NCBI RefSeq assembly: GCF_008271745.1
Contig: NZ_VKKZ01000019.1
Span: 62,001 to 126,000 of the forward strand
Direction of reading: 5' to 3'
Origin: Rufibacter glacialis
Lineage (GTDB): Bacteria; Bacteroidota; Bacteroidia; Cytophagales; Hymenobacteraceae
DNA length: 64,000 nucleotides
Below the pieces are notes generated by a model. It did not search any database. It was given only the letters and a program-made list of their open reading frames with translations, and was not told the DNA's origin. The translations under genes and the position numbers were made by a program. Below, one piece after another: positions 5,671 to 34,045 of the stretch (position 1 is its first letter; each line of letters opens with the position of its first letter).

Positions 5671-5677
5671 TAGGCCG

Positions 5678-15420: not shown

Positions 15421-15425
15421 TTAGC

Positions 15426-16528: not shown

Positions 16529-17944
16529 CTAAGCCGTGGCAGAAACCGCCTCGTACTTGTTTCCGAACCGGTCTGTGGCCACCACTTTCACCTGTTTCAC
16601 CTCCGGGCCAAAGTGTGCCATGAAGAGGTGCTCGGTGCGAGCGGGCTCCGCGAAGGCGCGGCGGGCGGGCAGTTTATCGCCTTTCATGGTGCGCACGGTG
16701 GCCGGGTCAAAGCCTTTGGTGTTGGACAGTGCTCCCATGGCCTTGCCATCAGAAAACCATTCCACCTTCCAGGCAGGGTCCCAGTTCCAGACGTTGGCAA
16801 TGAAGCGTTTCTGGGCTGTCAGGTGCTCAATGTCCAGGCTGATTTGGTAGTTCTTGTCCTGGCCCGTGGATTTGTAGTACCAGCTCAGTTGGTTGCCGTT
16901 CACCTCGTACACGCCGTAGCCGTTGGGGGTACCGTCGGTGCAGATGGGCCCAGACCACCAGGCGCCGCACACGGTGCCGTGCACATGCTCATAGATGCCC
17001 TCGCGTATCAAGTTGTAGTTGGTGTGTGTGTGGCCGGTCATGATGTGTACCTGGTAGCCTTGCAGCAGGGCAAACAAATCCTCTCGGTTTTTCACGTGGC
17101 TGGAGATGGGAATGTGCGCGTTGAGGATGACCAGATGGTCTTTGGGCACAAAGCTGAGGTCTTGCTTAAGCCAGGCCAGCTGTTGCTCAGAGATATAACC
17201 ATCGTAGTCGCGTTCCGTGCCCAGGTAACGCACATCGTCCAGCACAATGTAGTGGGCCTTGCCGCGGTTGAACGAGTAGTACGTAGGCCCGAAGTGCTTC
17301 TGGAAGGTAGCGTCTGAGGTTTCATCGCCGCCCAGGCGGTAGTCCATGTCATGGTTGCCCAGTGCTTGGAAAAACGGCACGCCAATGGCGCCTACTGCCT
17401 TGCTGTAATCGGCGAAGAGCTTGTGGTTGTCCCAGACCAGGTCACCCACGCCTATGCCGTGCACCAGCGCGTCTTTGCCCAGGCTCTGCACCAGTTGGCG
17501 GGCATCGGGCACGGAGTCCTGCATCATCATGGCCACGTCTTCCTTGTTTTTCACCTGCGGGTCTGCCCACACAATGAACGAGTGCTGCGCATCGTCTTTG
17601 CCCAGCGGCTCCAGCTCAAAGTCGTATTTATCCTTTTTGCCGCCGGTGATGGGTTGGTAATGGCGCGCCAGGCCTTTCTCTTGGGGGAACGCGTACCCGG
17701 CCGGGATGGACAGGAACACAAATCTTGCCCGCTCATTCACCGGCAGCTCAAATTGCCCGCGCTTGTTTGTCTGCACCACCGTGAACCCGTCTGACACCGA
17801 GACATTGGCCAGTTTCTTCCCTTTGGCGCGTACCGTTCCGCTAAGGGTGGTCTTTTTTTTATTTCTGGCGAAAACACTGGGGCCAGTTAAAACCAGGCCG
17901 CCCGAGAAAAAGGCCAGGGTCTGGAGAAAGGTTCTTCTTTTCAT
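16529..17944 (-). CDS. Secreted calcineurin-like phosphoesterase (MetallophosN/C type)
   Basis: The 471-residue protein begins with a Tat-like or Sec signal (MKRRTFLQTLAFFSGGLVLTG). A small beta-sandwich regulatory domain (about 30-95) is followed by the metallophosphatase core: VWADPQVKN, GVGDLVWDN, ALGNHDMDY, LNAHIPIS and MTGHTHTN supply the metal ligands. A C-terminal beta domain follows. Members act on phosphomonoesters or diesters outside the cytoplasm; the substrate is not readable. It lies 286 bases downstream of the Gfo/Idh gene and upstream of GDPD, in a block of extracytoplasmic hydrolases. Confidence 0.88.
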   Translation of the reverse strand: MKRRTFLQTLAFFSGGLVLTGPSVFARNKKKTTLSGTVRAKGKKLANVSVSDGFTVVQTNKRGQFELPVNERARFVFLSIPAGYAFPQEKGLARHYQPITGGKKDKYDFELEPLGKDDAQHSFIVWADPQVKNKEDVAMMMQDSVPDARQLVQSLGKDALVHGIGVGDLVWDNHKLFADYSKAVGAIGVPFFQALGNHDMDYRLGGDETSDATFQKHFGPTYYSFNRGKAHYIVLDDVRYLGTERDYDGYISEQQLAWLKQDLSFVPKDHLVILNAHIPISSHVKNREDLFALLQGYQVHIMTGHTHTNYNLIREGIYEHVHGTVCGAWWSGPICTDGTPNGYGVYEVNGNQLSWYYKSTGQDKNYQISLDIEHLTAQKRFIANVWNWDPAWKVEWFSDGKAMGALSNTKGFDPATVRTMKGDKLPARRAFAEPARTEHLFMAHFGPEVKQVKVVATDRFGNKYEAVSATA

Positions 17945-17995
17945 GGGTAGGAGTGGGGGCTGTGGTTTTGTTTTTTGGTTTGTGATAGAAAGGTT

Positions 17996-18033: not shown

Positions 18034-18151
18034 CTTCCGGTGCAGCATGGGGGCGTTAAGGTACGTATTGGGCCCAGAACGAGGAAAGAGACAATGCCAC
18101 TACCTCGCCTAAGCTATTCGGTGTAAGTTTCTCCCGCGCCTTCCCCTGGCT

Positions 18152-18189
18152 CTGTTTTACCTCCGTTTTACAAAAACAAGGCCGAAAAC
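18152..18189. repeat. Intergenic ~38-bp imperfect palindrome (family copy)
   Basis: CTGTTTTACCTCCGTTTTAC then AAAAACAAGGCCGAAAAC. It is the second copy in the same 285-base gap, 41 bases past the stop of the Gfo/Idh gene. Confidence 0.5.
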
Positions 18190-18229
18190 TTTGCCAGGGA
18201 AAGGGGTTTGGGAAATACTAATCTGCGGA

Positions 18230-19624
18230 TTAGGCATTCATGTTGATGGACATGATCTTGCCTTTCTTGCGGCTCTCCTCGGCCATGAAGCCCATAAGGT
18301 GCGCCTCAATGGACTCGTCAATGGTAGAAGTGAGCAGCTTGGGGTTCTGGTGCGCCACCGCCTGCACGAAGTCTTTCACGAGTAGCCAGTCGCCGCCGCC
18401 GTGGCCGCTGTTTTTGTAGCCGTCCACGTCCTCAGCTTTGGGGACTAATTTCAATTCTTTGCGGGTTCTGAAGTCATTCACCACCAGCTCGGTCATGTCG
18501 CCTACCATGTCGCCCATGGTGCCCATGATGCGGGTGCGGCGGCCATGGTACGAGGTGAAGGCCTCCATGGAGAAACTGGCCGTCACGCTGTCAGCGAACT
18601 GGATGCTGGCCACGTAATGGTCGGGCTGGTCGTTCTCCATGCGGTACACGCAGCGGCCGTAGTTGGTAGTCTTTAGCCGTTCCATGATCACCTCGGGGTG
18701 CTTGGCTTTGTCAGCGGGCAGGTCTAACACGGCCAGGCGACGGCGGTCTTCATAGTAATGCTTGATGGCCGAGTACGGGCACTCGCGCTCTACCTTGCAG
18801 CCGTCGGTGCAGCGGGGAGTGCTGCCTTGGGGGGCGTTCTCCTTGCGGAACAGTTTCAGGTCACCCATGGCGGCAATGCGTTGGCTGGGTTTGCCTACCA
18901 CCCACCGGATGATGTCCAGGTCATGGCAGGACTTGGCCAGGATGATGGGCGTGGTTTCCTTGGAGTTGTGCCAGTTGCCGCGCACGTACGAGTGGGCCAT
19001 GTGCAAATGCTCGATAGGCTCAAAATGCTGCACGCTCACAATGTCACCAATGGCGCCTTGCTGGATCAGCTCACGCATCTTCACGAAATATGGGGCGTAG
19101 CGCAATACGTGGCACACCGCCACGATGCGGTTGTTTTTCTTGGCCAGCTTGAGGATGTCACGGCATTCCTTCTCGGTGGGGGCAATGGGTTTCTCCAGCA
19201 AGATGTCATAACCCATAGCCAGGGCCTTCATGCAGGGGGCATAGTGCAGGTTGTCTGGCGTGGAGATAATGACCGCATCAGCGAACTTGGGGCGTTTGAA
19301 CACGTCTTCCCAGGTGTTGAAGCGGTTCTCAGCGGCTATCTTGTGTTGGGTGGCATACTTCTCGTTCCGGAACTGGTTGGGTTCGGCCACCCCCACAATG
19401 TCTATCTGATCAGGGAATTTGGACGCATAGTTGCCGTATACCGTTCCGCGGCTACCGGCGCCAATGGTGATGGCGGTGATGGCTTTGTTGAGCGGTTTGT
19501 GCTCTGGGTTGGGGGGAATGGTGTAGGAGTAGGTGTTGTCTCCCAGTTTGGCCAAAGCCTCGGTGCTGATGACGGCGGCGCCAATGCTCAAGCCTAATGA
19601 TTTTAATAATTTCCGGCGGTTCAT
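18230..19624 (-). CDS. Gfo/Idh/MocA family oxidoreductase, exported
   Basis: The 464-residue protein has a Tat/Sec-like leader (MNRRKLLKSLGLSIGAAVI). A Rossmann fold follows (ITIGAGSRGTVYG), then LLEKPIAPT with the family's EKP catalytic Lys region, and the C-terminal Gfo/Idh domain. An inserted segment reads CTDGCKVERECPYSA, with closely spaced cysteines that could bind a metal or form disulfides. Some exported members of this superfamily are NAD-dependent glycosidases (GH109-like); others are dehydrogenases. I cannot tell which applies. It lies within the minus-strand hydrolase block. Confidence 0.87.
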   Translation of the reverse strand: MNRRKLLKSLGLSIGAAVISTEALAKLGDNTYSYTIPPNPEHKPLNKAITAITIGAGSRGTVYGNYASKFPDQIDIVGVAEPNQFRNEKYATQHKIAAENRFNTWEDVFKRPKFADAVIISTPDNLHYAPCMKALAMGYDILLEKPIAPTEKECRDILKLAKKNNRIVAVCHVLRYAPYFVKMRELIQQGAIGDIVSVQHFEPIEHLHMAHSYVRGNWHNSKETTPIILAKSCHDLDIIRWVVGKPSQRIAAMGDLKLFRKENAPQGSTPRCTDGCKVERECPYSAIKHYYEDRRRLAVLDLPADKAKHPEVIMERLKTTNYGRCVYRMENDQPDHYVASIQFADSVTASFSMEAFTSYHGRRTRIMGTMGDMVGDMTELVVNDFRTRKELKLVPKAEDVDGYKNSGHGGGDWLLVKDFVQAVAHQNPKLLTSTIDESIEAHLMGFMAEESRKKGKIMSINMNA

Positions 19625-19737: not shown

Positions 19738-20931
19738 TTAGCGGACTAAGCCCGGTAATTTTTTCATCTCGTTATAGTAAGCCATATAGGCATCAAAGAA
19801 TTGGGGGTTGTTTTTGAGCAGGAGAATGACCTCGTTGTTATAGTAAACCGTGTTGCCTGTATAATTATGGGTGCCGGTTACCACCAGATTGGTCTGCTCC
19901 CCTTTCCATACTCCTTTGATGAGCATGAACTTGGCATGGATATTAATTTTAAGCTGGTTAGAGGCGGTTAGGTTGTATATTTTTACATAGGCTCCTTTCC
20001 TTTTGAGGTTTTCCAGACCAGCCAAGATTTCATCATCCGCCTTGCTTTTGGCAATGACCTCTACAGTGGCGCCCTTGTTCAGGAGCTCTTCAAGTTTGGT
20101 AATGACATTCAGGCGGGCAGCCGTCCAGTCTGACATCCCTATTCTGATAAGGGCAGAGGAAGGGTCTGTGATCTGGTTCAGGATCTCTATGATGGAATCT
20201 GCCCCGTAGTTTTTCCCGCTTTTTCGTTTGGGAAAGAAAAGAGCTGAGATTCCAGCCGCCGGATCCTCAAATTCACGGTATTCAAAGTTTTTCATGCCGC
20301 TGGCGGCTTTGGCCTTCATATCTTCCCAATACCCTTTGTAAGCATTGTATAGACCTTGGTTAGAGAGAATGACAGCGTCTTGTATTTTCTTTGAATCTGC
20401 CACCGAGAAGTTGTGCGAGGTTTGGAATACCACTTTTCCCATTTCACCAGAGGCGGTGGAGAGCTTGGAAAACAAAACGAATTTGTTGTGGTTGATAGAG
20501 CTATTGCCGGCATCACTGGTGACTACTACCATTTCTGAGTTAGGCTTCAGGAAAGCACGTATCTCATTGACGGCAGGCGGGTTCTCTATTTTGGTTTCCT
20601 CTCTGCTCATGTCCACCATAAGGTGCAGGTTTACTCCTCTGTCAGAGGCTTTCCGTAAAGCAGAGATCAGCTCAGGATGGCTAAATCCAAAGATGCACAG
20701 GTGAACCGAACTTTTGGCAGGAGCCGCATTGACCATGGAAACTAGCCTATCCATGATGGCAGTTGAAGAGAGGCCACTGCCCACCTGGTCTAGCCTGGTG
20801 AAAACAACGTCTGGGACTTTGGCTGTTAACGCAATAGCTGAATCCTCTTTTGCCATGGATTCCTCGCTCTCATCTTTGCAGGCAGACAGGCCCAGCAGAA
20901 GGAAGATAAAGGCAAGCTTTAGTTTGTTCAT
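19738..20931 (-). CDS. Phospholipase-D-like lipoprotein with two HKD-type motifs
   Basis: A lipoprotein signal (MNKLKLAFIFLLLGLSAC) leads a 397-residue protein with two PLD half-domains. The first has VHLCIFGFSHPE and HNKFVLFS. The second has NIHAKFMLIKG followed by TGTHNYTGN. The HxK pairs are intact, while the following Asp is replaced by other residues in both copies. The superfamily cleaves phosphodiesters in phospholipids or nucleic acids (Nuc-like). It lies one terminator downstream of the DUF5689 gene of the SusCD unit, which suggests phosphodiester attack at the cell surface. Phospholipid versus DNA cannot be decided here. Confidence 0.82.
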   Translation of the reverse strand: MNKLKLAFIFLLLGLSACKDESEESMAKEDSAIALTAKVPDVVFTRLDQVGSGLSSTAIMDRLVSMVNAAPAKSSVHLCIFGFSHPELISALRKASDRGVNLHLMVDMSREETKIENPPAVNEIRAFLKPNSEMVVVTSDAGNSSINHNKFVLFSKLSTASGEMGKVVFQTSHNFSVADSKKIQDAVILSNQGLYNAYKGYWEDMKAKAASGMKNFEYREFEDPAAGISALFFPKRKSGKNYGADSIIEILNQITDPSSALIRIGMSDWTAARLNVITKLEELLNKGATVEVIAKSKADDEILAGLENLKRKGAYVKIYNLTASNQLKINIHAKFMLIKGVWKGEQTNLVVTGTHNYTGNTVYYNNEVILLLKNNPQFFDAYMAYYNEMKKLPGLVR

Positions 20932-21045: not shown

Positions 21046-21089
21046 AAAGAAGTGCGCTTGTTGGTTTAAGAACAGAAGCGCACTTCTTT
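21046..21089 (-). terminator. Terminator closing the glpT-susC-susD-DUF5689 unit
   Basis: A 14-bp perfect stem (AAAGAAGTGCGCTT / AAGCGCACTTCTTT) with a 16-base loop starts 11 bases after the stop of the DUF5689 gene. Reading on the minus strand, the stem ends in CTTT followed by TT. Confidence 0.85.
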
Positions 21090-21099
21090 GGGAGGTAAC

Positions 21100-22395
21100 C
21101 TATTCCACGCCGGCGTAAACTGCGAAGTTGTCAAAGGCAAAGCGCCCGTTGAACACCGCCGGAGGATTATTAGCGCCAAGACCTTGCTTGAACAGCCTGA
21201 AGCGTACCGGGCCGCTGATGTCCATCAAAACGGTGGCTGTTCTGGTCCAATTGCCGGCCTCGGTCATAGTAGGGCCCACTTTCTTCCAGGTCTTGCCTTT
21301 GTCCTGGGAATATTCAATCCACCAGGTGCTGGAGGCGTCTGTGTAGTAGGCGCCGTAGATATAAGTAACCTTAGATGCCCCGTTGGGAAGGTCAAAGTTC
21401 ATCTGAACGTACGGGCTCTGATTGGCGGGCCGGCCATCTTGCATTCTAATGCCCCACGTGCCGGTGAACCTGTCCCGACCAGGCGTTTGCCCCACAATGG
21501 AGTAGAAAAGTTTCCAGGAGCCCGTGCTGAAGTCGATCGTATTGTCCACTACTCCCCGTAAAGGGTTCATGTTGTAGCTGTCTTTAACCAAACTAGGGTT
21601 GTCAAACGTCTCTGGGAAACCTGGGTAAAGCGGCCCGCTTTGGTCTTCCACATCATTGATGGACCGCAACGACAGCAGGAGGGTGGGTGTTTGGGCCTGC
21701 GGATTTACCCCTGCCAAAGGCACGCCGGTATAGGTGGCGCTTGGCCACAGCCTCTCCTGGGCGAAGGTGGCTGTGGATTGGGTGTGCAGAATAATGTTGT
21801 TCCCGTTCCCGTCCGTCATCTGTTTGTCTCCGCTGTAGGTGGAGGTACGGGTAGGCGTTGGGGTGATGTTTCCTGCCACAATCTTCACCAAGGTACCCTC
21901 ATAGTCACCTGGTTTATTCACCAGTGCCTCAAGGGAGACCGTTCTGGGGTTAACGGTGATTCCAGATTTTACTTTGGTGACCGCCGAAGGCTGCAAGCCG
22001 GTAATGTGCAAGGCTCCATTGATACTCTTGAGCGCGGCTCCTTCGGTCTCCACTACCACAGAGTCACCTACCACTAGCGGTGTGCTGCTGGGGGTTCCAA
22101 ACTGGAGAACGATTCCTCTGGTGAGTTTTCTCCGGGTATTCTGGATGATTACCTGGTTGCTAGGGAAATTTCCGGAAGAAGGGTCTGAGATGACTACTCC
22201 TACTACCTGGTGCGCCCCTGCCATTTTCTCTCTGGTGAGGGTCACTTCTTCTCCCCTATACAGCGCCCTTACGTCTGCGAGTGACATGTATGGGCTATCT
22301 TGCCCTATTGCTTCGTTCACATCTTCTTCTATACAAGATGTGAAGGCTATTGCTCCAAAGGCGAAAGCAAAAAGCTGTAACAGTTTATATTTCAT
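21100..22395 (-). CDS. DUF5689 domain lipoprotein of a SusCD locus
   Basis: The 431-residue protein has a lipoprotein signal (MKYKLLQLFAFAFGAIAF, lipobox TSC). Residues about 35-260 match the DUF5689 pattern: an OB-like segment with VVGVVISDPSSGNF, NQVIIQNT and GNNIILHTQSTATF. A C-terminal beta-sandwich of choice-of-anchor J or concanavalin-like type runs from about 265 to 431 (WWIEYSQDKGKTW, GRFAFDNFAVY). Such proteins are surface lipoproteins encoded beside SusC/SusD pairs and probably bind substrate. It follows susD by 62 bases and ends the transcription unit. Confidence 0.82.
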   Translation of the reverse strand: MKYKLLQLFAFAFGAIAFTSCIEEDVNEAIGQDSPYMSLADVRALYRGEEVTLTREKMAGAHQVVGVVISDPSSGNFPSNQVIIQNTRRKLTRGIVLQFGTPSSTPLVVGDSVVVETEGAALKSINGALHITGLQPSAVTKVKSGITVNPRTVSLEALVNKPGDYEGTLVKIVAGNITPTPTRTSTYSGDKQMTDGNGNNIILHTQSTATFAQERLWPSATYTGVPLAGVNPQAQTPTLLLSLRSINDVEDQSGPLYPGFPETFDNPSLVKDSYNMNPLRGVVDNTIDFSTGSWKLFYSIVGQTPGRDRFTGTWGIRMQDGRPANQSPYVQMNFDLPNGASKVTYIYGAYYTDASSTWWIEYSQDKGKTWKKVGPTMTEAGNWTRTATVLMDISGPVRFRLFKQGLGANNPPAVFNGRFAFDNFAVYAGVE

Positions 22396-22457
22396 GGTAT
22401 TTTTTATTTGTAGGGTGAGTTGTACTGCGAACTCCTCAACTTGATTTGCCTATCACT

Positions 22458-23978
22458 TTATTCTTGCCACCAAACTTTCGTGTTGATATCATCTGGGCCT
22501 TGGTCTGCCACGGCCGCCAGATAGTTGTCACGGTTCAGGCTTTGCACGTAGAGTGGATAGTTGATGCGGGCAGGCATTCTGCCATTGTTCTTCACCCCTG
22601 GGCCAATGGGCAGGATAGGATAGCCGGTTCTGCGGTACTCAAACCATTGCTGAAAGTCCGTGAAAAACAAGGCGTAATACTTCTGCTGGTGGATCAGGTC
22701 CATCTTTCTGCCGAAATCATACGTGTCCTCCCATTTGACTTCTTCATTGGCAAAATAGCCGGTGGGTACCGTTAGACCCCACAGAGTAATGCCGTTGGTA
22801 GCCCCAGTCTCATAATAAGTCTTGGGGCTGCCTGAAGTGTATCCTTTTAAGGCGGCCTCTGCCAAGATGAACTGCACCTCAGGGTAATTGAGGATGTTGC
22901 CTAGGAGCGGATTGGTTCTGAGGGCTGGGAGGTAGGAAGACTCAGCGGCGGGTATTTTTCCGGTTTCATACCCGCTCTGGATGCCGGCATAGCGCCCTTC
23001 CCGTAGGGTGGCCCACACCGTGACACGGGGATCGCCCCACTGATTCAGGTTGTTGATAAAGAACTCTGCCATGTTTTGGGCAGTGTTCCAGTCAGCATCA
23101 CGGGTGTTCTGGAAAGGAGACTGGTAGGGGGCGGTACCGGTGAAGCGCAGAATAGCGGACTCAGCATTGGTAGAGATGAGAGGATAGGTAGCGGCATTGA
23201 TGTTCACCATGTTTCCTATCTTCTCTGCAGCACTCATCTCTTTGTTCACAATCTTGTCTGGTTTCCCGGAAACCCGTAGCAAGAGGCGCAGATACAAAGA
23301 GTTCCCGAATTTACGCCAGTTGGCCGCCACACCGTTGTACAAAGGATCCAATTGCTTCAGGCCAGAAGGGAAATCCCTTGCTTCAACGTCGGCCGCGGCG
23401 GACGACGCTGGCGTTAAGAGGGTATTGGCTTCTTCCAGTTTCTGGAACAGGTCGGCATAGATCGCCTCTTGTTTGTCAAACTTAGGCATTAAGATGCCTT
23501 CTCGCACTTTGTTGGCATTGAAGTAAGGTACATCTCCATACGTATCTGTTAGCAGCGAAAAAGCCCAAGCTTCACAGATAAGCCCAATCCCCATAAAGGT
23601 TTTGTGGTATTGTTGGGTAGGGTAGGTGGTGGACAAAACCTTGGCACTTGCATAGATGTCTTTAAAATCTGTGATCTGGGTGTACCAGTTGTTCCACATG
23701 TAATCTGCTTCTGCCGTACGAATGACATAGCGGTGGATTTCGTCGTTGTCAGACCGCGCCACGTGCACCTGCATCAACTCGTTATTGAGGCGCATGGCCC
23801 GGTCAAGGTTACGTTGCACCAGATCTGTCAAGGCAGGAGCCAACAAGGACTCTGGCATGGCAAAGGGACTGGTGTTGGGGTTGGTGTTCAGCTCCTCAAA
23901 CCCCTCATCACAGGAGTTAAGGGTAGTCATACCTACCACTGTAAGGAGGGACAAAGCAATTAATCTTATCTTTTTCAT
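22458..23978 (-). CDS. SusD/RagB-like outer-membrane substrate-binding lipoprotein
   Basis: The 506-residue lipoprotein (MKKIRLIALSLLTVVGMTT, lipobox NSC) has the SusD-like helical fold. Visible features are an N-terminal EELNTNPNTS, a TPR-like middle with MGIGLICEAWAFSLLTDTYGDVPY, and a C-terminal QQWFEYRRTGYPIL. SusD proteins cap the SusC barrel and hand over ligand. The gene begins 13 bases after the susC stop, the usual arrangement. It belongs to the SusD-like-2 group by length and N-terminus (inferred). Confidence 0.93.
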   Translation of the reverse strand: MKKIRLIALSLLTVVGMTTLNSCDEGFEELNTNPNTSPFAMPESLLAPALTDLVQRNLDRAMRLNNELMQVHVARSDNDEIHRYVIRTAEADYMWNNWYTQITDFKDIYASAKVLSTTYPTQQYHKTFMGIGLICEAWAFSLLTDTYGDVPYFNANKVREGILMPKFDKQEAIYADLFQKLEEANTLLTPASSAAADVEARDFPSGLKQLDPLYNGVAANWRKFGNSLYLRLLLRVSGKPDKIVNKEMSAAEKIGNMVNINAATYPLISTNAESAILRFTGTAPYQSPFQNTRDADWNTAQNMAEFFINNLNQWGDPRVTVWATLREGRYAGIQSGYETGKIPAAESSYLPALRTNPLLGNILNYPEVQFILAEAALKGYTSGSPKTYYETGATNGITLWGLTVPTGYFANEEVKWEDTYDFGRKMDLIHQQKYYALFFTDFQQWFEYRRTGYPILPIGPGVKNNGRMPARINYPLYVQSLNRDNYLAAVADQGPDDINTKVWWQE

Positions 23979-23991
23979 TCTTGTCTAATCT

Positions 23992-26900
23992 TTAGAAGCT
24001 AAGGTTCAGGTTAATGCCTGTTGTTCTGGTAGATGGGAACTGGCCCAACTCATACCCGGCGTCAATGGTGCCGTCATTCAGGGTCCCGAATTCTGGGTCA
24101 AAGGCAGGCCAGTTAGAGATAACCCATAGGTTTCTACCGTAGATGCCGATTGTTGCTTTCTCCAGTCTCAGTTTTTTAACCAGGTTAGTGGGAAGGGTAT
24201 AGTCAAAGCGTACTTCCCTTAATTTGATGTAGTCAGTGCTGAACAGGTTCCCTTCCACGTTGTCGCGGCCGAAATGGGCGGTGTAATAGGTCCAGATGTT
24301 TTCCGCAACTACATCATTAGGCCTAAAGCTGCCGTCTCCGTTAGCAATCACTCCGTTGCCAATGATTCCGTTGTAACGGCCTGGTAACGTGTTCTTGGTC
24401 TTCCCTTGTTCAGCCAGGGTGGCATGAGTTAACGAGTAAGCCTTTGCTCCAAAGGAGCCGTCAAAAAGGACATTCATGCGGAATTGCTTGTACCTGAATT
24501 CATTGCCAATGCTTCCTTTCCACTTTGGAACCGCCTTGGCCAGATACATGATGTCATTGGTCAGCAAAGGGTATCCGTTCTCATAGATAATCTGCCCTTC
24601 TGGAGACCGTAAATAACCTCTGCCGTAGATGTCTCCCATGGTTCCGCCAATGGTAGCCTCTACTGAGCCACGCCCGCCAGGTCCTCTTTGCAATTGGTAA
24701 GTGGTAAGGCTGTCTGCCAGTTCTATTACTTTGTTTCTGTTAGCTGAATAAGTAGCGAAGATATTCCAGTTCAATCCCTTTTTGCTTTTGAGTGGTGAAC
24801 CGTTGGCCTGGATTTCAATACCTTGGTTTCTCACCATACCGGCATTTAGGATCTGGTAGTTAGCACCAGAAGACCTGTCAATGGGTACAGAAAGGATTTG
24901 GTCTCTTGTATTGTTTCTGTAGACGGCAATGTCAAGCCCAATTCTACTCTTCAGGAAGCGGGCATCTATGCCGAATTCAACGCTCTCTGTTCTTAAGGGT
25001 AAAAGACTTCCGTTTGCTACTGCACTAGGGTTAGACAAGCCAGATGGGAAACCTGTGGCAATGGTGTAGGAGAAGTTAGTCAAGTAAGGTTTCATGCCGC
25101 CGCTTCCAACTTCTGCCCAGGAGCCGCGAAGTTTCAGGAAGGAAACAGACGCCGGCATGGGAATGACCTCAGAAAGGACGGTGCTCAAACTGACAGAGGG
25201 GTAAGGCTCAATGGGTTTCACGCCCGTTGAGGCGGCTAACGTGCTTGCCCAGTCTTTCCGCAGGGTTAAATCCAAGAATACCCAATCATCAAACCCAACA
25301 GTCATCAAGCCATATAGACCATTAAGTTCAATGTCTTGGCGCCATGGGTAATTCAAAGGTACATCGCGGCTATTGGCAAAGTTGAATACTTGCGGGTAGA
25401 TCAATCTTTCAGCTCTCAGCTCATCTCTTACATACCGGTTCTTGGTTCTGCTTCCTCCCAGAGAGGTGGAGATCTCAAATCTTTCTCCCAGGTTACGGCC
25501 GTATCTTAACAGGAAATCATAGTTGAGTTCTTGCGAGAAGATGTTCTGCTCCCGGTACATCCCTTCTTTGAATTTCTCAGTGTCTTTGGGTCTGCGTTGC
25601 GAACGCTGCTCATAGGCTAAGTCCATAGACGTGCGCACCATCAGGCTCAGGTCTTTGGTGAAATTGTAGCTTGCCTGTATGTTCCCGGTCACCGAGTGCC
25701 TGTTTGACTTGTTTAACATCTCATAGGCAATCAGGAATGGGTTGTCAATCAAGCTACTGAAGGGGTAGTTCTGGGCAATCCCTTCCTTGCCCGGCTGCCA
25801 GTAGTCTCTATACCAATCCAGGTTTCCGTTAGGAACCTGCAGGATATTCCAGTACATGATGGACTGGTTGTTATACCCGGTGGAAGGCAGGTTGTCACTA
25901 TACTTGTTGGTGTAGTTGATTTTGGTGGAGATCTTCAACTTGTCAGAAATATTCTGGTTTGCTGAAAAAGCTACCGTGTTTCTGTTGTATCCTGTGTTAG
26001 GAATAATCCAGTTATTAGATACATTGGTCAAGGAGAAGCGTACGGCTGTCTTGGAGGTACCACCGTCTAGGGTAACAGAGTTGGTGAAAGTCTTGCCAGC
26101 TTCGAAGAAGTCTTTACGGCTGTCTTTGTAGGGTACCCACGGTGTACGCTCGGTACCGGTTGTTCTAGTGCTAGGATCATATTGGAAGAACGTCTGACCA
26201 TCAAACTTCGCTCCCCAGGCAGAACTGGTGCTTCGGGTACTGGTACCATCAAGGGTTGTATTAAAGGAGTAGTAATTTACGCCCTCATCGCCTTGCCCGT
26301 ACTCGTACTGGTAATCTGGCCACCGGTTGATGGTTTCAATGGAGAAGTTGGAGTTAAAAGAAACTCCCAAGCCTTTTGCTCTGGGTTTCCCTTCTTTGGT
26401 GGTGATAATGATGGCACCGTTTGCTCCCCTTGATCCATACAAGGCAGTGGCGCCCGGGCCCTTCAGAACCGTCACACTTTCAATGTCTTCTGGGTTGATG
26501 TCATTGAGGTTAGTACCAAAGTCAACAGGGCTTTCCCCTTGCAGGTAAGCGGTGCTTCCATTGCCAGTAGCCCTACCGCTCCCGCTGTTGATGACAACGC
26601 CGTCTACCACAATGAGGGCTTCGCTGCCGCCCCCCAGGTCATTCTCACCCCGCAGGATAATCTTGTTTGAGCCTGTGGGACCACCACCCGACTTCACCAT
26701 GTTCAAACCGGCCACCCGCCCGGTGAGGGCATCGGTCCAGTTGTTAGGCATGGCCTCCGTCAGGCTTTCACCCTGTACCGTGGTGGTGGCAAATCCCAGA
26801 GCTTTCTCTTCACGGGTAATGCCCAGGGCAGTGACCACTACCTCATTTAATTGGGTGGCGTCTGCGGACATTCTGATAGATAAGTTCTCTTCTGCCTTGG

Positions 26901-27237
26901 AGATCACCATTTTGTACTGTTGATACCCAATAAAGGTGAACGACAGGGTAGCACCCGTTTCCACGCTTACTTGGAACGTACCATCTGCATTGGTCATACC
27001 CACCGCTTGGTCGTTCACAAAGACCGTTACCCCTGGCATAGCCGAGCCATCCGTCTGGTCTACTACCTTTCCTTTTACCGGAACCTTCGTATTCTGGGCG
27101 GTTTGCTGGAAAGACCCTATAAACGCAGGAGGGGTGGCAAGTGCCTGCGTGCCGGTCAACAGCAGACAGCACCCGAAGAAAATGCCCTTCCGCCAGCTAA
27201 AGCTGCGGGGAGGCGGTGGTTGTAAAAATGTCTTCAT
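23992..27237 (-). CDS. SusC/RagA-like TonB-dependent outer-membrane transporter
   Basis: A 1081-residue protein with a signal region (MKTFLQPPPPRSFSWRKGIF, then a hydrophobic stretch ending ALA). A CarboxypepD_reg domain follows (VKGKVVDQTDGSAMPGVTVF), then the SusC signature region LNEVVVTALGI. The plug has LIVVDGVVINSG and GANGAIIITTKEG. The rest is a 22-strand-type barrel that ends in LNLSF, the C-terminal aromatic signal. It imports bulky ligands with SusD and TonB energy. Its start is only 45 bases after the glpT stop with no promoter visible between, so it is probably co-transcribed with glpT. That is an unusual partner for a SusC. Confidence 0.94.
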   Translation of the reverse strand: MKTFLQPPPPRSFSWRKGIFFGCCLLLTGTQALATPPAFIGSFQQTAQNTKVPVKGKVVDQTDGSAMPGVTVFVNDQAVGMTNADGTFQVSVETGATLSFTFIGYQQYKMVISKAEENLSIRMSADATQLNEVVVTALGITREEKALGFATTTVQGESLTEAMPNNWTDALTGRVAGLNMVKSGGGPTGSNKIILRGENDLGGGSEALIVVDGVVINSGSGRATGNGSTAYLQGESPVDFGTNLNDINPEDIESVTVLKGPGATALYGSRGANGAIIITTKEGKPRAKGLGVSFNSNFSIETINRWPDYQYEYGQGDEGVNYYSFNTTLDGTSTRSTSSAWGAKFDGQTFFQYDPSTRTTGTERTPWVPYKDSRKDFFEAGKTFTNSVTLDGGTSKTAVRFSLTNVSNNWIIPNTGYNRNTVAFSANQNISDKLKISTKINYTNKYSDNLPSTGYNNQSIMYWNILQVPNGNLDWYRDYWQPGKEGIAQNYPFSSLIDNPFLIAYEMLNKSNRHSVTGNIQASYNFTKDLSLMVRTSMDLAYEQRSQRRPKDTEKFKEGMYREQNIFSQELNYDFLLRYGRNLGERFEISTSLGGSRTKNRYVRDELRAERLIYPQVFNFANSRDVPLNYPWRQDIELNGLYGLMTVGFDDWVFLDLTLRKDWASTLAASTGVKPIEPYPSVSLSTVLSEVIPMPASVSFLKLRGSWAEVGSGGMKPYLTNFSYTIATGFPSGLSNPSAVANGSLLPLRTESVEFGIDARFLKSRIGLDIAVYRNNTRDQILSVPIDRSSGANYQILNAGMVRNQGIEIQANGSPLKSKKGLNWNIFATYSANRNKVIELADSLTTYQLQRGPGGRGSVEATIGGTMGDIYGRGYLRSPEGQIIYENGYPLLTNDIMYLAKAVPKWKGSIGNEFRYKQFRMNVLFDGSFGAKAYSLTHATLAEQGKTKNTLPGRYNGIIGNGVIANGDGSFRPNDVVAENIWTYYTAHFGRDNVEGNLFSTDYIKLREVRFDYTLPTNLVKKLRLEKATIGIYGRNLWVISNWPAFDPEFGTLNDGTIDAGYELGQFPSTRTTGINLNLSF

Positions 27238-27282
27238 ATAGAAATAGGTTTAGTTTATGATGTAGAATAACAGAAAGCAGGC

Positions 27283-28665
27283 TTATACCAGGTTGAGATG
27301 GCGTTTCTCCCGTTGCCAGGTAAAGGCCGTAAAGACAATAGAGAGAATACAGGCTAGCACCAGCATAATGAAGCCTCCGTCCCAGCCCCATTTGTCTACA
27401 ATGAAGCCCATGGCGATATTGGCGAACAAGGCGCCTCCCAGGTACCCAAACAGTCCGGTTAGGCCCGCCGCTGTTCCGGCGGCTTTCTTAGGAACCAGAT
27501 CCAGGGCCTGCACCCCAATCAGCATCACCGGTCCGTAAATCAGGAACCCAATGGAAATAAGCGCTAGGTTGTCCACCCAGAGGTTACCGGCCGGGTTTTT
27601 CCAGTACACCACTACCGCTACCAGCACCAAGGCCATGTAGATGATGGTAGCCGGAGCCCGACGGCCTTTGAAGACCTTGTCACTGATCCAGCCGCAAAGC
27701 AGGGTGCCCGGGATGCCCGCGTACTCATAGGCGAAGTAGGCCCAACCGGTCTCTTTCACAGAAAATCCTTTGGCCTCTTCCAGATAGGTAGGAGCCCAGT
27801 CTAAGATGCCATAGCGCACCAAATAAACAAAGGCGTTCGCAAAGGCGATGTACCAGAGCACCCGGTTGTTGAAGACATATTCAAAGAAGATTTGCCTGGC
27901 CGTGAGCTCCTTTTCCAGTGATTCTGAATAATTAGCCGGATAATCGTTCTTGTAGGCCTCAATGGTGGGCAGGCCGCAAGACTGCGGGGTGTCTCTGATG
28001 AGCAGGTAAGCGATAAAGGCAACTACCAAGGCCACCATGCCCGGGAAATAGAACTTACTCTCCCAGGTACCGAAGATAGCAATGGCCGCTATGGCGATAG
28101 GACCTACCAGGCCGCCGCCAATGTTGTGGGCCACGTTCCAAATAGACATTTTGGTGCCGCGCTCCTTGGTGGAGAACCAATGCACCATCACCCGGCCACT
28201 AGCTGGCCATCCCATTCCCTGGAACCATCCGTTCAGGAAAAGCAGAAGGAACATGATGGTGATGGAGCTGGTGGCAAAGGAGGAAACCCCCATGAAGATC
28301 ATGGTCAGGGCAGAGAGCAGAAGGCCCACGCTCAGGAAGGTTCGGGCATTGCTGCGGTCAGAGACGTTGCCCATCAGGAACTTACTCAAGCCATACGCAA
28401 TGGAAACCCCGGAAAGGGCGAAGCCTAGGTCCGCCTTGGAATACCCTTGGGCAATCAGGTCGGGCATGACCAGGGAGAAGTTCTTGCGCACCAGGTAATA
28501 ACCGGCGTACCCCAGGAAGATGCCCATGAAGACCTGCAGCCGGAGCTTTTTGTATTCAGGGTCAACCCGGTCCAGTGGCAACGGGGCAATGTGGGCCGCC
28601 GGCGCGAAAAGCCCTTTTTTAGGAGAGGTACCCGAGGATGTAGAAGTGTTGTCTATTGTTTTCAA
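27283..28665 (-). CDS. glpT: Glycerol-3-phosphate transporter (GlpT/UhpT family MFS)
   Basis: A 460-residue major-facilitator protein with about 12 membrane segments and a cytoplasmic N-terminal leader of some 40 residues. The region [20 protein letters not shown] matches the organophosphate:phosphate antiporter family, where the Arg (here in YYLVRKNF) contacts phosphate. GKFLMG-like and [10 protein letters not shown] segments are also typical. GlpT exchanges glycerol-3-phosphate for inorganic phosphate. It has its own TAnnTTTG box and leader hairpin upstream and runs into susC after 45 bases. Placement beside glpF-glpK-glpD supports GlpT over the hexose-phosphate paralogue. Confidence 0.88.
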
Positions 28666-28695
28666 GGTAATAGTTTGTCTGTCTGGTAGGGAAGG

Positions 28696-28713
28696 CCAAC
28701 CCAGAAGGGTTGG
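28696..28713 (-). promoter_or_regulatory. Leader hairpin upstream of glpT
   Basis: CCAACCC-AGAA-GGGTTGG forms a 7-bp perfect stem with a tetraloop. It lies between the predicted transcription start (about 28733) and the glpT start (28665), so it would be in the 5' leader. Role unknown. Confidence 0.45.
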
Positions 28714-28740
28714 TCCTCTTTGTTCTTATCAAATCTTATC

Positions 28741-28748
28741 CAAAGCTA
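28741..28748 (-). promoter_or_regulatory. -7 box for the glpT-susCD-DUF5689 unit
   Basis: On the minus strand the sequence is TAGCTTTG, a perfect TAnnTTTG match, 75 bases upstream of glpT. A clear -33 TTTG at the right spacing is not seen, so strength is uncertain. Confidence 0.5.
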
Positions 28749-28790
28749 CCCTGGTTTTTTCTGATAACAGGGCAGGTGGCTGAACTTAAC

Positions 28791-28831
28791 AAAAGCTTAA
28801 TGTGCCCTGCCTTGCTCCTGGGCAAGCTTTT
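28791..28831 (-). terminator. Hairpin after glpF
   Basis: AAAAGCTT (28791-28798) pairs with AAGCTTTT (28824-28831), with an inner GCCC/GGGC pair. It starts 14 bases past the glpF stop and would separate glpD-K-F from glpT. Confidence 0.6.
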
Positions 28832-28844: not shown

Positions 28845-29573
28845 TCATTGTAAAAGCAAATAGAGAAGGGCCGCAGAACTGGCTCCGGCCAGCGGACCTA
28901 TCACCGGAACCCAGGCGTAGCGCCAGTCACTGTGGCACTTGTTCTTCAATGGAAGAAGGCTGTGCACAATTCGGGGGCCCAGGTCGCGGGCCGGGTTGAT
29001 GGCATAGCCGGTGGTGCCGCCCAAGGAGAGGCCAATGGCCCATACCAGGAACGTGACAGGCAATGCTCCCAGCGAACCCATGCCGATAGGGGTTTTCTGT
29101 TCGCCCATCTGTGGCTCTGTGATGTAGAGGATCACAAAAAGGAGCACGAACGTGCCCACCGCCTCACTGAACAGATTCGCATAAGGGTGGCGGATGGCAG
29201 GGCCAGTGCTGAATACCGCCAATTGGGCCAAAGGGTCTTCAGTAGAATTAAAGTGGGGCATGTAGATAAGCCATACCAGAAAGGCCCCGGCCATGGCGCC
29301 CAACAGTTGGGCCGCCACATAGACTCCCACCTGGCTCCAAGCGAACTTGCCTACAATGGCCAGAGCGAGGGTCACCGCCGGGTTCAGGTGGGCACCGCTG
29401 TAAGGCCCGGCAATCACCACTCCCGCAAAAACGGAAAGGGCCCAACCGGTGGTGATCACCATCCAGCCGCTGTTGTTGCCTTTGGTTCCTTTCAGAACCA
29501 CATTGGCCACCACGCCCCCGCCCAATAAAATCAGGAACATGGTCCCAATCAATTCTGCTGTAAATGCTGACAT
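28845..29573 (-). CDS. glpF: Glycerol facilitator (aquaglyceroporin)
   Basis: A 242-residue MIP-family channel with six membrane segments and two half-helix motifs: SGAHLNPAVT (Asn64) and GYAINPARDLGPR (Asn193). The Asp directly after the second NPAR (Asp197) is the hallmark of glycerol facilitators as opposed to water-only aquaporins. It conducts glycerol across the inner membrane. Its start lies 6 bases after the glpK stop, so the two are co-transcribed. Confidence 0.92.
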   Translation of the reverse strand: MSAFTAELIGTMFLILLGGGVVANVVLKGTKGNNSGWMVITTGWALSVFAGVVIAGPYSGAHLNPAVTLALAIVGKFAWSQVGVYVAAQLLGAMAGAFLVWLIYMPHFNSTEDPLAQLAVFSTGPAIRHPYANLFSEAVGTFVLLFVILYITEPQMGEQKTPIGMGSLGALPVTFLVWAIGLSLGGTTGYAINPARDLGPRIVHSLLPLKNKCHSDWRYAWVPVIGPLAGASSAALLYLLLQ

Positions 29574-29579
29574 GGAGCG

Positions 29580-31105
<1,526 letters not shown>

Positions 31106-31106
<1 letters not shown>

Positions 31107-32752
31107 TAGTTTTTATAGCTGAGCAAAGGGGTAGACGCCTTACGGGCGGGGGTGTAGGGCTCCAACAGGTAATTTGCGGCCAGGGCCATGAAATCTTCCA
31201 GTTGCTGGTGTTGCCAATCCTCTCCGTGCCCTAGCTCTTCGGCCATTAACCTGGCTACTTCAGGGGCCATGTCCATGGCGGCCCGGGCGTCCAGGAACAG
31301 GATGCGCATTCTTCTGGCCAACACGTCTTCCACGGTTCTGGCCATCTCATTGCGGGTGGCCCAGACTACCTCAGCGGCAAGGTTGGGGAACCGCTCGTGC
31401 AAAGGCTGGCCCAGTTCAGGGAACCGCTTGACCAACGCCTGGATAAAGGTTCTATCTGCCCCATAGATGGAGAGGTGCTCAGATTTGGTCTGGGGCGCGG
31501 CAAACCCGTGGACTTTGAGGGTAGCGGTGACGCAGGGCTTCTGGGGCAGAATGCCCAAGGCTATGGCCTGGTCTACCGTGTCCTGGGCCATCCTCCGGTA
31601 GGTGGTCCATTTACCACCCGTGATGGTGATCAGGTTAGAGGGGGCTACCAGTAACTTGTGGCTTCTGGAGATCTCTTTGGTGCTGTTGGTGTTCTTGGTG
31701 GGGGCCGCCAATGGCCGTAATCCGGCAAAAACGCTCAATACGTCTTTTCTGGAAGGTTTGCGGACCAGGTATTGGCCGGCCGTTTCCAGAATGAAATCTA
31801 TTTCCTGCTCCAGGGCCCTTGGTTCCAGGCTATTCTGGTCAAGAGGCGTGTCAGTGGTGCCCACCAGCAGGTGTTTGTGCCAGGGAACCACAAACAGCAC
31901 CCGTCCGTCTGGGGTTTTCGGGATCATCAAGGCATTGTCGCCGGCCAGGAAGGAACTGTCCAGCACCACGTGTACGCCTTGGCTGGGGCGTACCAGGGGG
32001 GGCTGGGCCGGGGCATTCATCTCCAATACCTCATTCACGAAAACCCCCGTGGCGTTGACCACCGTTTTGGCTTTTATCTGGTACTCCTGCCCAGATTCCA
32101 GGTCTTTGGCTTTCACGCCCGCTACCTTGCCGTTGCTGTCTTTCAGTAGGCTGACCACCGGCATGTAATTCAGCAGCACGCCGCCCTGCTCAGCGCAGGT
32201 CTGGGCCAGGTTCAAGGCCAGACGGGCATCATCAAACTGCCCGTCAAAATACTGGACGCCGCCTTTCAGACCCCTAGCCTGGATATTGGGCAACAGCCTG
32301 GCTACTTTCTTCCCAGACAAAAGCGAGGTTTTGTTGAAGCGGTAGCGCCCGGCCATCAAGTCATATACCGTGAGGCCTACGCCGTACAGCATCTCGTTCC
32401 ACCAGGTGTAGTTCGGGATCACAAAAGATTGGATATTGACTAGGTGAGGGGCATTCTGCAACAGGAGCCCGCGCTCATAAAGCGCTTCATATACCAATTT
32501 TATATCTCCCTGCGCCAGATACCGTACCCCACCGTGCACTAGTTTGGTGCTTCTGCTGGAGGTTCCCTTGGCAAAGTCGGCCTGTTCCAGCAAAAGCGTT
32601 TTGAATCCACGTGATGCGGCATCAAGGGCAACTCCTAAACCAGTAGCGCCGCCCCCAATCACAATCATATCCCATGCAGCAGCATGGTTTTTTACCTCCT
32701 CCAGGAATAGCTCTCTTTTGAAAAACTGGCTATTAGGTTCGTTTTCTTTCAC
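31106..32752 (-). CDS. glpD: Glycerol-3-phosphate dehydrogenase, FAD-dependent
   Basis: GlpD oxidises glycerol-3-phosphate to dihydroxyacetone phosphate and passes electrons to quinones at the inner membrane. The FAD-binding motif is [46 protein letters not shown] and TTDTPL are GlpD-specific. I chose the GTG at 32752 (first residues [10 protein letters not shown]). The alternative TTG at 32827 lies upstream of the predicted -7 box, so it would not be in the transcript. The longer reading gives 573 residues and this one 548, close to the usual 530-560. The gene heads glpD-glpK-glpF. Confidence 0.9.
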
Positions 32753-32787
32753 GCGGCTTTTGATTACTAAAATATCACTTACTTTTT

Positions 32788-32799
32788 CTTTCGTTTTAA
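32788..32799. promoter_or_regulatory. Candidate GlpR operator in the glpD promoter
   Basis: CTTTCGTTTTAA on the plus strand overlaps the glpD -7 box. A 10/12 match, CTTTCATTTTGA, lies just upstream of glpR (33252-33263). DeoR-family regulators often bind TTTCGTTTT-like direct repeats, so these two sites are candidates. Confidence 0.35.
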
Positions 32800-32828
32800 A
32801 ATTATGTTTCCCATTTATGAAAAGCAAA
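32797..32828 (-). promoter_or_regulatory. Bacteroidetes-type promoter of glpD-K-F
   Basis: Minus-strand TTTG (32825-32828), a 20-base spacer and TAATTTTA (32797-32804) match the -33/-7 consensus apart from the last base. It places the start of transcription between the TTG and GTG start candidates of glpD. Confidence 0.6.
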
Positions 32829-33251
32829 TGAAATTAAATAAAATTATAATGTAGACTTCTTCCCTTTTTGAGGAATTCATAATGCACCCGGAGTAAGAGT
32901 TGCCATGTACCCTAGGTAAGGGTAGAAGTTGTTTAGTGGCTGGCTTTCTAAAAAGGGCTTGGAAACCCCGGGGGTGCTTTACAAGTCCGTGCCGCAAGGT
33001 GGTTTCTGCCCTTTTAGCCTGATGGCCAAAATAGTACCCTTTGTTTTACCTTAGAGGGATAACAACTCGCCCCGGCGGAACAGGGCTGGAAAGGGGGTTG
33101 GCTGGCTTGGCAAGAGGTGCGGGAGGGGGCTGCCGGTAGGCAAGCCTCTGTTTAGGGGCTGGTTTCACCAAAAGAGAGGAGAAATCTTTGCGCTGGTAAA
33201 GAGGAATGGTTCTGGTAGTCTTGGAACAGAAACCTAAAATTGTTTCTTTTG
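32829..33251. other. Divergent glpD/glpR intergenic region
   Basis: This long gap between two divergent genes has an AT-rich stretch next to glpD and a purine-rich stretch near 33160-33220. I see no gene, long repeat or strong hairpin. A third CTTTGTTTTA-like sequence (33039-33048) resembles the candidate operators. Confidence 0.5.
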
Positions 33252-33263
33252 CTTTCATTTTGA
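33252..33263. promoter_or_regulatory. Candidate GlpR operator upstream of glpR
   Basis: CTTTCATTTTGA, 12 bases before the glpR ATG, matches the site in the glpD promoter at 10 of 12 positions and has the same orientation. It suggests autoregulation. Confidence 0.35.
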
Positions 33264-33274
33264 TTCTGGTACGA

Positions 33275-34045
33275 ATGGTAAATATAACCGAAAGGCATCA
33301 ACATATACTTGGAAAACTGCAGCAGGAGGGCCAGGTGACGGTTTTAGGATTGTGTGAGGAGCTGAGTGTGTCTTCGGTGACCATTAGAAAGGATCTGAAA
33401 CTGCTAGAGGACAAAGGCCTGCTGTTCCGTACCCACGGCGGCGCCACTCAGAACAACCCTTATACCATTGACCGCCCGGTCAATGAGAAAGAGCACATCC
33501 AGATCAATGAGAAAAGCCGCATAGGGCAGGCAGCTGCCAAACTGATAGAGCCCAATGACTCTATCCTGATTGCTTCCGGAACCACCGTCATGGCGTTGGC
33601 CAAGAGCATTCAGCCCAATACCCTCAAGAACCTGATGGTCATTACCTCGGCGCTGAACGTGGCCCTGGAATTGCTGCGGCACCCTGAGGTGGAGGTGATG
33701 CAATTGGGCGGAATCCTGCGGCGCAGTTCCTCTTCCGTGACGGGGCCTTACGCCGAGAGCATCTTGGCTGACTTTTCCTGCAGCAAGCTGTTTCTGGGCG
33801 TAGACGGCATTGACCTGGACTTCGGGCTGACCACCACCAACGTGATGGAGGCGCGCCTGAACCGGCACATGATCAATATCTCGCAGAAAACCATTGTGCT
33901 CGCGGACTCCTCCAAGTTTGGGAAACGTGGTTTTGGGCGCATTGGCGGGTTTGAGGATATTGACCATATCATCACCGACAAAGGTATTTCTGAGCACACG
34001 CTCAACACCCTGCAAGGCATGGGCGTGAAAGTCACCATTGTGTAA
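33275..34045 (+). CDS. glpR: DeoR-family regulator of glycerol metabolism
   Basis: The ATG at 33275 gives the standard DeoR N-terminus (MVNITERHQHILG), so upstream in-frame starts are rejected. The 256-residue protein has a winged helix-turn-helix (LCEELSVSSVTIRKDLKLLEDKGLLFRTHGG in pieces, residues 22-55). A sugar-phosphate-binding C-terminal domain follows, with DSILIASGTTV, LGGILRRSS and GVDGIDLDFGLTTTN. The family represses transport and catabolic genes and is released by a phosphorylated intermediate, for GlpR glycerol-3-phosphate. Its divergent position from glpD-K-F supports this assignment. Confidence 0.85.
   Translation: MVNITERHQHILGKLQQEGQVTVLGLCEELSVSSVTIRKDLKLLEDKGLLFRTHGGATQNNPYTIDRPVNEKEHIQINEKSRIGQAAAKLIEPNDSILIASGTTVMALAKSIQPNTLKNLMVITSALNVALELLRHPEVEVMQLGGILRRSSSSVTGPYAESILADFSCSKLFLGVDGIDLDFGLTTTNVMEARLNRHMINISQKTIVLADSSKFGKRGFGRIGGFEDIDHIITDKGISEHTLNTLQGMGVKVTIV

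Follow-up and report, generated by a model that had tools for sequence, protein, structure and literature searches.

What is a SusC/SusD outer-membrane importer doing in one gene run with a glycerol-3-phosphate transporter? SusCD importers are mostly linked to glycans and peptides, and few to organic phosphorus, while in Rufibacter glacialis (assembly GCF_008271745.1, contig NZ_VKKZ01000019.1, positions 62,001 to 126,000) such a pair is joined to a glycerol-3-phosphate pathway. This stretch of 64,000 nucleotides (nt) is referred to below as the window; the parts of the locus lie within 12953–34045, and Rufibacter is its genus label. The gene content suggests a locus for organophosphate utilisation that has the layout of a polysaccharide utilisation locus. 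Its cargo would belong to the glycerophosphodiesters, anything between small deacylated phospholipids and poly-glycerol-phosphate; we give this reading a probability of roughly three in four. The cargo is assigned to this class because GlpT, a glycerophosphodiester phosphodiesterase (GDPD) and the glp catabolic genes are present. With such an assignment, the cargo of a SusD subfamily would become predictable.

The centre of the locus consists of four genes on the minus strand. The product of glpT (27283..28665) scored 727 bits against the glycerol-3-phosphate transporter model TIGR00712 (cut-off 633) and 729 bits against a second model, PRK11273, under the cut-off of 748. It is followed by susC (23992..27237), encoding a TonB-dependent outer-membrane transporter (TIGR04056, 574 bits against a cut-off of 368, with the TIGR04057 signature), susD (22458..23978), encoding the lipoprotein lid of the transporter (PF12771, SusD-like_2, 318.5 bits), and the gene for a DUF5689 lipoprotein (21100..22395; PF18942, above cut-off), a putative surface substrate-binding protein. 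Against PF14322 this SusD reached 24.9 bits, under the cut-off of 27, and PF07980 was absent among its Pfam matches. A SusC above the TIGR04056 cut-off with a Pfam-family SusD directly downstream identifies a SusC/SusD pair. An earlier first-pass annotation of this DNA had described the four genes as running in the same direction and separated by 45, 13 and 62 nt, with glpF-glpK-glpD next upstream, and the open reading frame (ORF) positions agree on both points. The upstream set, also on the minus strand, occupies 28845–32827 and comprises a glpF-like MIP channel gene (28845..29573; PF00230, and TIGR00861 above cut-off), the glycerol kinase gene glpK (29580..31106; TIGR01311, 742 bits, above cut-off) and the glycerol-3-phosphate dehydrogenase gene glpD (31106..32827). 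GlpD matches PRK12266 with 296 bits and PRK13369 with 275 bits, below the equivalog cut-offs of 360 and 352, and its gene stays close to glpT in the gene neighbourhoods of relatives.

It is likely that glpT, susC, susD and the DUF5689 gene form a single transcript. Upstream of glpT lies a promoter-type box, TANNTTTG, which reads TAGCTTTG at 28741–28748 on the minus strand. An aligned box occurs in 7/7 loci of the genus, 54–91 nt ahead of the glpT start in all seven aligned leaders. The TAnnTTTG box noticed earlier is therefore present and conserved in position, while on its own the motif is at chance frequency: the window holds 27 TANNTTTG boxes against 26.9 expected, and for this reason only the aligned conservation is used as evidence. 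No TTG was found 17–23 nt upstream of the box at 28741–28748. The glpT-susC gap, in which no promoter had been visible on first inspection, contained a TANNTTTG box in 0 of 14 loci examined, and a sigma-70 scan gave no minus-strand site within the gap of the window. A strong intrinsic terminator follows the DUF5689 gene, as first proposed (21046–21089, minus strand; −21.3 kcal/mol, z −6.75). Its 3' arm finishes in a five-U run, two U past the stem, and a simple scan missed it because its loop exceeds the length allowed by that scan. The glpT leader additionally carries a near-perfect hairpin between box and start codon (28694–28715; z −2.65); it was rejected as a common feature, the other aligned leaders of the genus being, by eye, without such a hairpin.

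Relatives were collected through GlpT in four draws at E 1e-140, in which glpT was found in 7/395 genomes of the phylum, where it is thus rare, 11/395 of the class, 14/390 of the order and 23/204 of the family; in the first three, four candidates were scored in most genomes, so that these glpT counts may fall short. The draws combined to 41 distinct glpT-bearing genomes, 40 of them above the family cut-off, and neighbourhoods were read for all 41; a match at 37% in G035 was left out of the GlpT counts. In the relatives, a longest-first script called the ORFs, and their names come from blastp comparison with the window proteins and nine extra queries. Where single genomes must be told apart, G010 is Rufibacter sp. 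XAAS-G3-1, G011 R. sediminis, G008 R. roseus, G001 R. ruber, G012 Sabulibacter ruber (under the window's genus label) and G030 Pontibacter fetidus, while G005 and G006 carry the window's genus label. The first-pass annotation had set loss of the glpT-susC linkage in relatives as a refuting check. When the check was run, susC was the next gene after glpT in all 23 glpT-bearing family genomes (7 Rufibacter, 16 Pontibacter), with gaps of 15–62 nt in 22 and an overlapping ORF call in one. The chance of finding susC next is about 0.7% per gene, given 32 SusC genes above cut-off in the genome and an assumed 1150 nt per gene. Overall, SusCD stands in the same run as glpT in 27/41 genomes; the four outside the family are Sphingobacteriaceae, in which GlpT comes after GDPD. 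A 59-genome sample of relatives had a SusD orthologue in place in all 8 genomes with a close GlpT (84–100%).

A second collection, drawn through SusD, comprised the best 80 of 179 relatives from one scan of named genomes, partly the same genomes as in the GlpT draws (L076 is G010); L078, L094 and L131, shorter than 5 kb, were scored as without neighbours. GlpT at 60% identity or more was found in 20/80 of these loci, each time in the same gene run, together with GDPD in 17, the phosphoesterase in 18 and a DeoR-family gene in 18; it stood directly ahead of SusC in 13/20, at gaps of 16–62 nt. Across all 80, DUF5689 occurred in 73, the phosphoesterase in 57 and GDPD in 36, and the fetched flanks of 67 held at least one query-set phosphodiesterase or phosphomonoesterase. 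The form with GlpT is found in Rufibacter, Pontibacter, Pedobacter, Parapedobacter, Sphingobacterium, Rhinopithecimicrobium, Sediminibacterium, Flavihumibacter and Niabella. Hymenobacteraceae, Sphingobacteriaceae and Chitinophagaceae, which belong to three orders, share the parts in differing gene order, with rearranged parts in 4/4 Sphingobacteriaceae drawn by glpT and in three loci of Chitinophagaceae. Because gene order varies between the three families, the linkage is more than an inherited neighbourhood.

Several observations weigh against the proposed organophosphate locus. The 23 family genomes represent two genera only and hence are not 23 independent cases. No SusCD was present in the stretch read for 14 of the 41 glpT genomes, six of them on contigs shorter than 12 kb; G012 has SusCD-DUF5689-GDPD without glpT, and glpT is missing from 9/16 genomes of the genus. 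Within the window, the SusCD unit and the half of the locus with GDPD lie on opposite sides of the strong terminator. Finally, a Riemerella protein required for natural transformation likewise contains DUF5689 (excerpts of PMC8459023), so that the domain is no marker of glycerol-phosphate cargo. The split by the terminator and the genomes lacking glpT or an adjoining SusCD would also suit a chance neighbourhood, in which an unrelated SusCD happens to lie beside glp genes; we regard this as exceedingly improbable in view of the 23/23 adjacency in the family and of parts that are rearranged and yet reunited in three orders. In favour of the organophosphate locus, at least 5 of the 14 GlpT genomes without SusCD have GDPD beside GlpT or at most two genes away (four identified by blastp, one through Pfam), and three further ones had a GDPD-like neighbour by eye.

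The related loci also differ in what surrounds the pair. Many other relatives have, ahead of SusC, a pair of ORFs about 190 and 330 amino acids (aa) long, which we take, by size, for a sigma and an anti-sigma factor. G005 has a second copy (L056, G005:C8:455000-474999, 5841–19419) with DeoR-like, SusC, SusD and DUF5689 genes, a distant GlpT-like MFS protein (24%), an FAD oxidoreductase, an exo/endonuclease-phosphatase and a type I phosphodiesterase; a kin copy in G001 (L057, G001:C20) has its susD broken by a stop. Related SusCD-DUF5689 loci in Pedobacter arcticus (L095) and Sphingobacterium phlebotomi (L096), at 12.9–21.4 kb, carry BNR repeat proteins, an FGE-sulfatase/BNR fusion and SASA acetylesterases, and L095 also GDPD.

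The first-pass annotation had contrasted this locus with usual SusCD loci by naming GlpT instead of hydrolases as the partner. That contrast fails, as hydrolases are encoded downstream of the terminator, where a series of enzyme genes on the strand of the core run had been overlooked. The unit ending at the terminator itself holds no glycan-degrading enzymes; a GH20 gene is encoded about 6.5 kb beyond it, on the same strand. The first gene of the series encodes a phospholipase D (PLD)-like lipoprotein (19738..20931, minus strand; PF13091), predicted to be a phosphodiesterase and probably surface-exposed, in which two HxK motifs are invariant in 8 aligned proteins. Next comes a Gfo/Idh-type protein with an N-terminal signal-like stretch (18230..19624, minus strand; PF01408); a reading as GH109 was set aside, no alpha-N-acetylgalactosaminidase being named among the best 60 of its 80 PDB sequence matches. 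The calcineurin-type phosphoesterase (16529..17944, minus strand; MetallophosN/C, PF16371 and PF16370) keeps its GD, GNHD and GHTH motifs invariant in 11 aligned sequences, and its structure model is poor (predicted local distance difference test, pLDDT, 65).

The GDPD, a lipoprotein predicted to be periplasmic (15426..16334, minus strand; PF03009, 139 bits), has active-site residues that are invariant in 14 aligned sequences, including the Ca-binding and catalytic residues of GlpQ-type GDPDs. Its best profile match was 3ch0 (E 6e-89), and Bacillus subtilis GlpQ (5t91) matched at E 1e-26. The hydrophilic-side active-site residues of that GlpQ, as given in part of PMC7086022, are all seven retained (His43, Arg44, Glu70, Asp72, His85, Glu152 and Gln188). 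It is followed by an SGNH esterase (14643..15338, minus strand; PF13472), whose closest PDB entries, 6njc/7pzg, are named sialate O-acetylesterase / lysophospholipase L1 (E 4e-63) and whose intact catalytic motifs are invariant in 7 aligned sequences, and by a GH20 hexosaminidase (12953..14623, minus strand; PF00728, 422 bits) with a homologue in 2/6 other loci of the genus (G001 and G005). Elsewhere in the genome, genes for a GDPD and a MetallophosN/C-like protein follow a paralogous SusCD (L058, G000:C24:132000-151999); the genome has three GDPD genes, two of them near a SusCD pair.

The lipoproteins of the locus differ in the residues that follow the lipobox cysteine, where acidic residues resemble a lipoprotein export signal (described in part of PMC5080379). 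Such residues come soon after the cysteine in 13/13 DUF5689 and 17/17 SusD proteins and, within eight residues, in 13/13 PLD-like proteins, the one in the window having KDESEE directly after it. Among GDPD proteins, 10/16 have no acidic residue within five residues of the cysteine and 6/16 have one. By analogy with this signal, DUF5689, SusD and the PLD-like protein would face outward, and the GDPD would be periplasmic. In the AlphaFold2 model of the DUF5689 protein (pLDDT 81), the C-terminal half is a beta-sandwich which resembles carbohydrate-binding modules at modest Foldseek scores, as for CBM61 (E 9e-6, TM 0.6 on the target and 0.2 on the whole model). In Pedobacter xixiisoli (L121), a 975-aa PLD homologue bears the secretion-system sorting tail PF18962.

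Comparison of closely related loci shows that susC-susD-DUF5689 was replaced in situ, with most neighbours kept. Between G011 and G005, the flanks are conserved (GlpD 97%, GlpT 97%, phosphoesterase 96%, SGNH 95%), SusC, SusD and DUF5689 have fallen to 65%, 57% and 44%, with GDPD (75%) and PLD (77%) in between. Measured in 200-column steps, DNA identity drops from 0.91 in glpT to 0.73 at the boundary and 0.5–0.75 in susC, and returns to 0.80–0.87 within the PLD gene; blastn gives a single alignment through susC into susD, at 79% overall. Because identity drops over these three genes with the flanks kept, the proposed transcription unit minus glpT acts as a cassette that is swapped in place. In Pontibacter, G765 and G776 share a GlpT at 96%, while the SusCD of G776 is of another kind (53/41%) and DUF5689 is missing there. 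Another SusCD type without DUF5689 sits at the same glp locus in the Pontibacter loci L067, L069, L071 and L160–L164, and four of the five loci L160–L164 (not L162) carry an additional GDPD-like gene behind SGNH.

Phylogenetic trees point in the same direction. In a SusD tree of 86 rows, from which SusD rows shorter than 380 aa were excluded, the GlpT label (24 rows) requires 14 changes, 12 of them forced by well-supported branches; the label is nonetheless clustered beyond chance (shuffled mean 21.0, with 0/500 shuffles as low). Each change could be a gain or a loss. Rufibacter and Pontibacter came out as clades in a quick GlpT tree (SH-aLRT 95 and 98), and a GDPD tree recovered Pontibacter (99), with two changes needed for Rufibacter, where G006 stands apart. 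SusC data reject both genera as clades (p-AU 1e-6 and 4e-6). The exchange thus offers a natural experiment, in matched genomes whose receptor is far more divergent than most surrounding genes.

Taken as one pathway, the parts suggest the following course. A phosphodiester substrate would first be trimmed by the surface PLD-like lipoprotein and then bound by SusD and the DUF5689 lipoprotein, after which TonB-driven SusC would carry it through the outer membrane. In the periplasm, the SGNH esterase, joined by glycosidases in some relatives, would remove substituents, and the calcineurin-type phosphoesterase and GDPD would cleave the ester to give glycerol-3-phosphate (or glycerol). GlpT would then swap glycerol-3-phosphate for phosphate at the inner membrane, with GlpD oxidising it, and free glycerol would enter through GlpF and GlpK. 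The glycerol-phosphate cargo class that the first-pass annotation had put forward is strongly favoured by the recurrence of the phosphoesterase, the PLD-like protein, SGNH and a GDPD with GlpQ residues alongside GlpT and SusCD.

Within this class, the glycosidases bear on the size of the cargo. By Pfam, the G010 locus contains a GH89 alpha-N-acetylglucosaminidase and a GH36 alpha-galactosidase; homologues of both occur in G011 and of GH89 in G008, which also has GH116 just after SGNH, while GH20 occurs in G001, G005 and the window. The GlpQ of B. subtilis acts only on units whose C2 hydroxyl is free and halts at sugars or alanyl esters (part of PMC7086022), so that sugars and esters must be removed first, and an esterase with removers of alpha-GlcNAc and alpha-Gal beside GDPD is what a decorated poly-glycerol-phosphate would need. 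The cargo may accordingly be the glycosylated and esterified poly-glycerol-phosphate of Gram-positive walls, cut at the surface, imported, stripped and end-trimmed by GDPD; we hold this tentatively, as a serious possibility that stays short of even odds. The surface-type signal of the PLD protein, expected of a surface endo-enzyme as in polysaccharide utilisation loci, is consistent with it, as are the two phosphodiester glycosidases (NAGPA) that flank a Gfo/Idh gene (L121, 17259–20608) beside the related SusCD-DUF5689-PLD of P. xixiisoli. Weighing on the other side, GH20, GH36 and GH89 enzymes are active on many glycans, and no such glycosidase homologue was named in G006 or in the compact Pontibacter loci, where part of the ORFs were family-tested. 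Among the open-licence papers listed by searches, none joins teichoic acid with SusD or polysaccharide utilisation by title. It is a bolder and slightly less probable extension that this is a SusCD-harvested teichoic-acid utilisation locus in which the cassette is swapped between species to track wall-polymer decoration, most catabolic genes being little changed. If the cargo were teichoic, the locus would provide a Gram-negative route for recycling the carbon and phosphorus of Gram-positive walls.

The same enzymes allow for a smaller substrate. GDPD, SGNH (with its PDB relative named lysophospholipase L1) and the PLD-like protein also suit phospholipid breakdown, and the compact Pontibacter loci are without a glycosidase by name; small glycerophosphodiesters or lysophospholipids from phospholipid debris are thus possible as the cargo, though below an even chance. 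Small glycerophosphodiesters should cross ordinary porins, however, and the use of SusCD together with its repeated exchange suggests a larger or variable ligand; GH89 and GH36 would also be left unexplained.

Nucleic acid, raised as an alternative at first, is now disfavoured and in our view very unlikely. The PLD-like protein weakly resembles the NucT nuclease, and the DUF5689 domain of the Riemerella transformation protein (PMC8459023, in part) would fit such a cargo. Nucleic acid would, however, leave GlpT, GlpF, GlpK, GlpD and GDPD without explanation; no nucleoside or nucleotide gene is among the named genes of the locus, and an exo/endonuclease-phosphatase is found in other SusCD loci (L056, L187) and not here.

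The proposed glycerophosphodiester locus is probably under the control of a DeoR-type repressor. A DeoR-family gene (33206..34045, plus strand; PF00455, PF08220) is divergent from glpD, and such a gene is found in 18/20 GlpT-SusCD loci. A candidate regulator site is a conserved 16-nt element, TTAAGCTTTTGTTAAG (28785..28800, minus strand; also written TTAANCTTTTGTTAAG), which contains the direct repeat TTAAG at a pitch of 11. It lies 35–37 nt upstream of the TANNTTTG box with 0–1 mismatch in 7/7 loci of the genus, the spacing in the window being 36 nt. We take the direct repeat to be Pho-box-like, as a lead only. The genome has one second exact copy of TTAANCTTTTGTTAAG, upstream of another phospho-type SusCD locus, where the box sits 73 nt from the element. 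At up to two mismatches the genome has 14 copies against 17 for a reversed control, and in 16 genomes of the genus there were 14 matches outside glpT at up to one mismatch against 12 for the control, so that away from glpT the element is at chance level. By eye, no obvious phosphate gene follows the other matches. Given the differing box spacing, the control-level counts and the lack of phosphate genes behind other matches, the Pho-box idea was not adopted. The second locus (L187, G000:C1:150000-169999, 3730–13477) has TTAANCTTTTGTTAAG upstream of susC, the TAGCTTTG box 73 nt on, SusD_RagB, an exo/endonuclease-phosphatase and two calcineurin-type phosphoesterases. Further along the window, a minus-strand ORF of 1996 aa (5678–11668) has a 69% homologue in G006, and the SusC model matches, with its N-terminal part, two short mid-ORF pieces (about 7590–8170).

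Among published systems, the closest kind is the Flavobacterium PusCD system. The PusCD phosphate utilisation systems of Flavobacterium johnsoniae are induced by low phosphate and proposed to import organic phosphorus (PMC8115612, in part). Both there and here, a SusCD-like pair lies near phosphodiesterase and phosphomonoesterase genes, periplasmic in the PusCD case, with inner-membrane organophosphate transporters adjoining. The locus here differs in its SusD, which belongs to PF12771, while PusD1 and PusD2 are PF07980/PF14322 proteins by the same source, and in the joining of a glycerol-3-phosphate catabolic set and a DeoR regulator to SusCD. A search of the main text of PMC8115612 for GlpT, GDPD and teichoic gave no match, and, going by titles and the starts of abstracts, none of the other open-licence papers listed describes an arrangement of SusCD with GlpT or glycerophosphodiesters. 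The B. subtilis GlpQ teichoicase resembles the GDPD here in the seven hydrophilic-side residues and in the position of Phe-190, all of which are kept (PMC7086022, in part), while the GDPD has Trp for Tyr-259 and Ile for Phe-279. With Sus-type polysaccharide utilisation loci, the locus shares SusC and SusD, an additional lipoprotein carrying a carbohydrate-binding-like domain, trimming enzymes and a dedicated inner-membrane transporter; it differs in that the core enzymes are phosphodiesterases and phosphoesterases, the nearby regulators are of DeoR and LysR type, and the transporter is GlpT. In the GlpQ-GlpT systems of E. coli and B. subtilis, an extracytoplasmic GDPD makes glycerol-3-phosphate for GlpT, and we know of no outer-membrane TonB importer that belongs to them; in the locus described here, by contrast, a SusCD pair is joined to the pathway.

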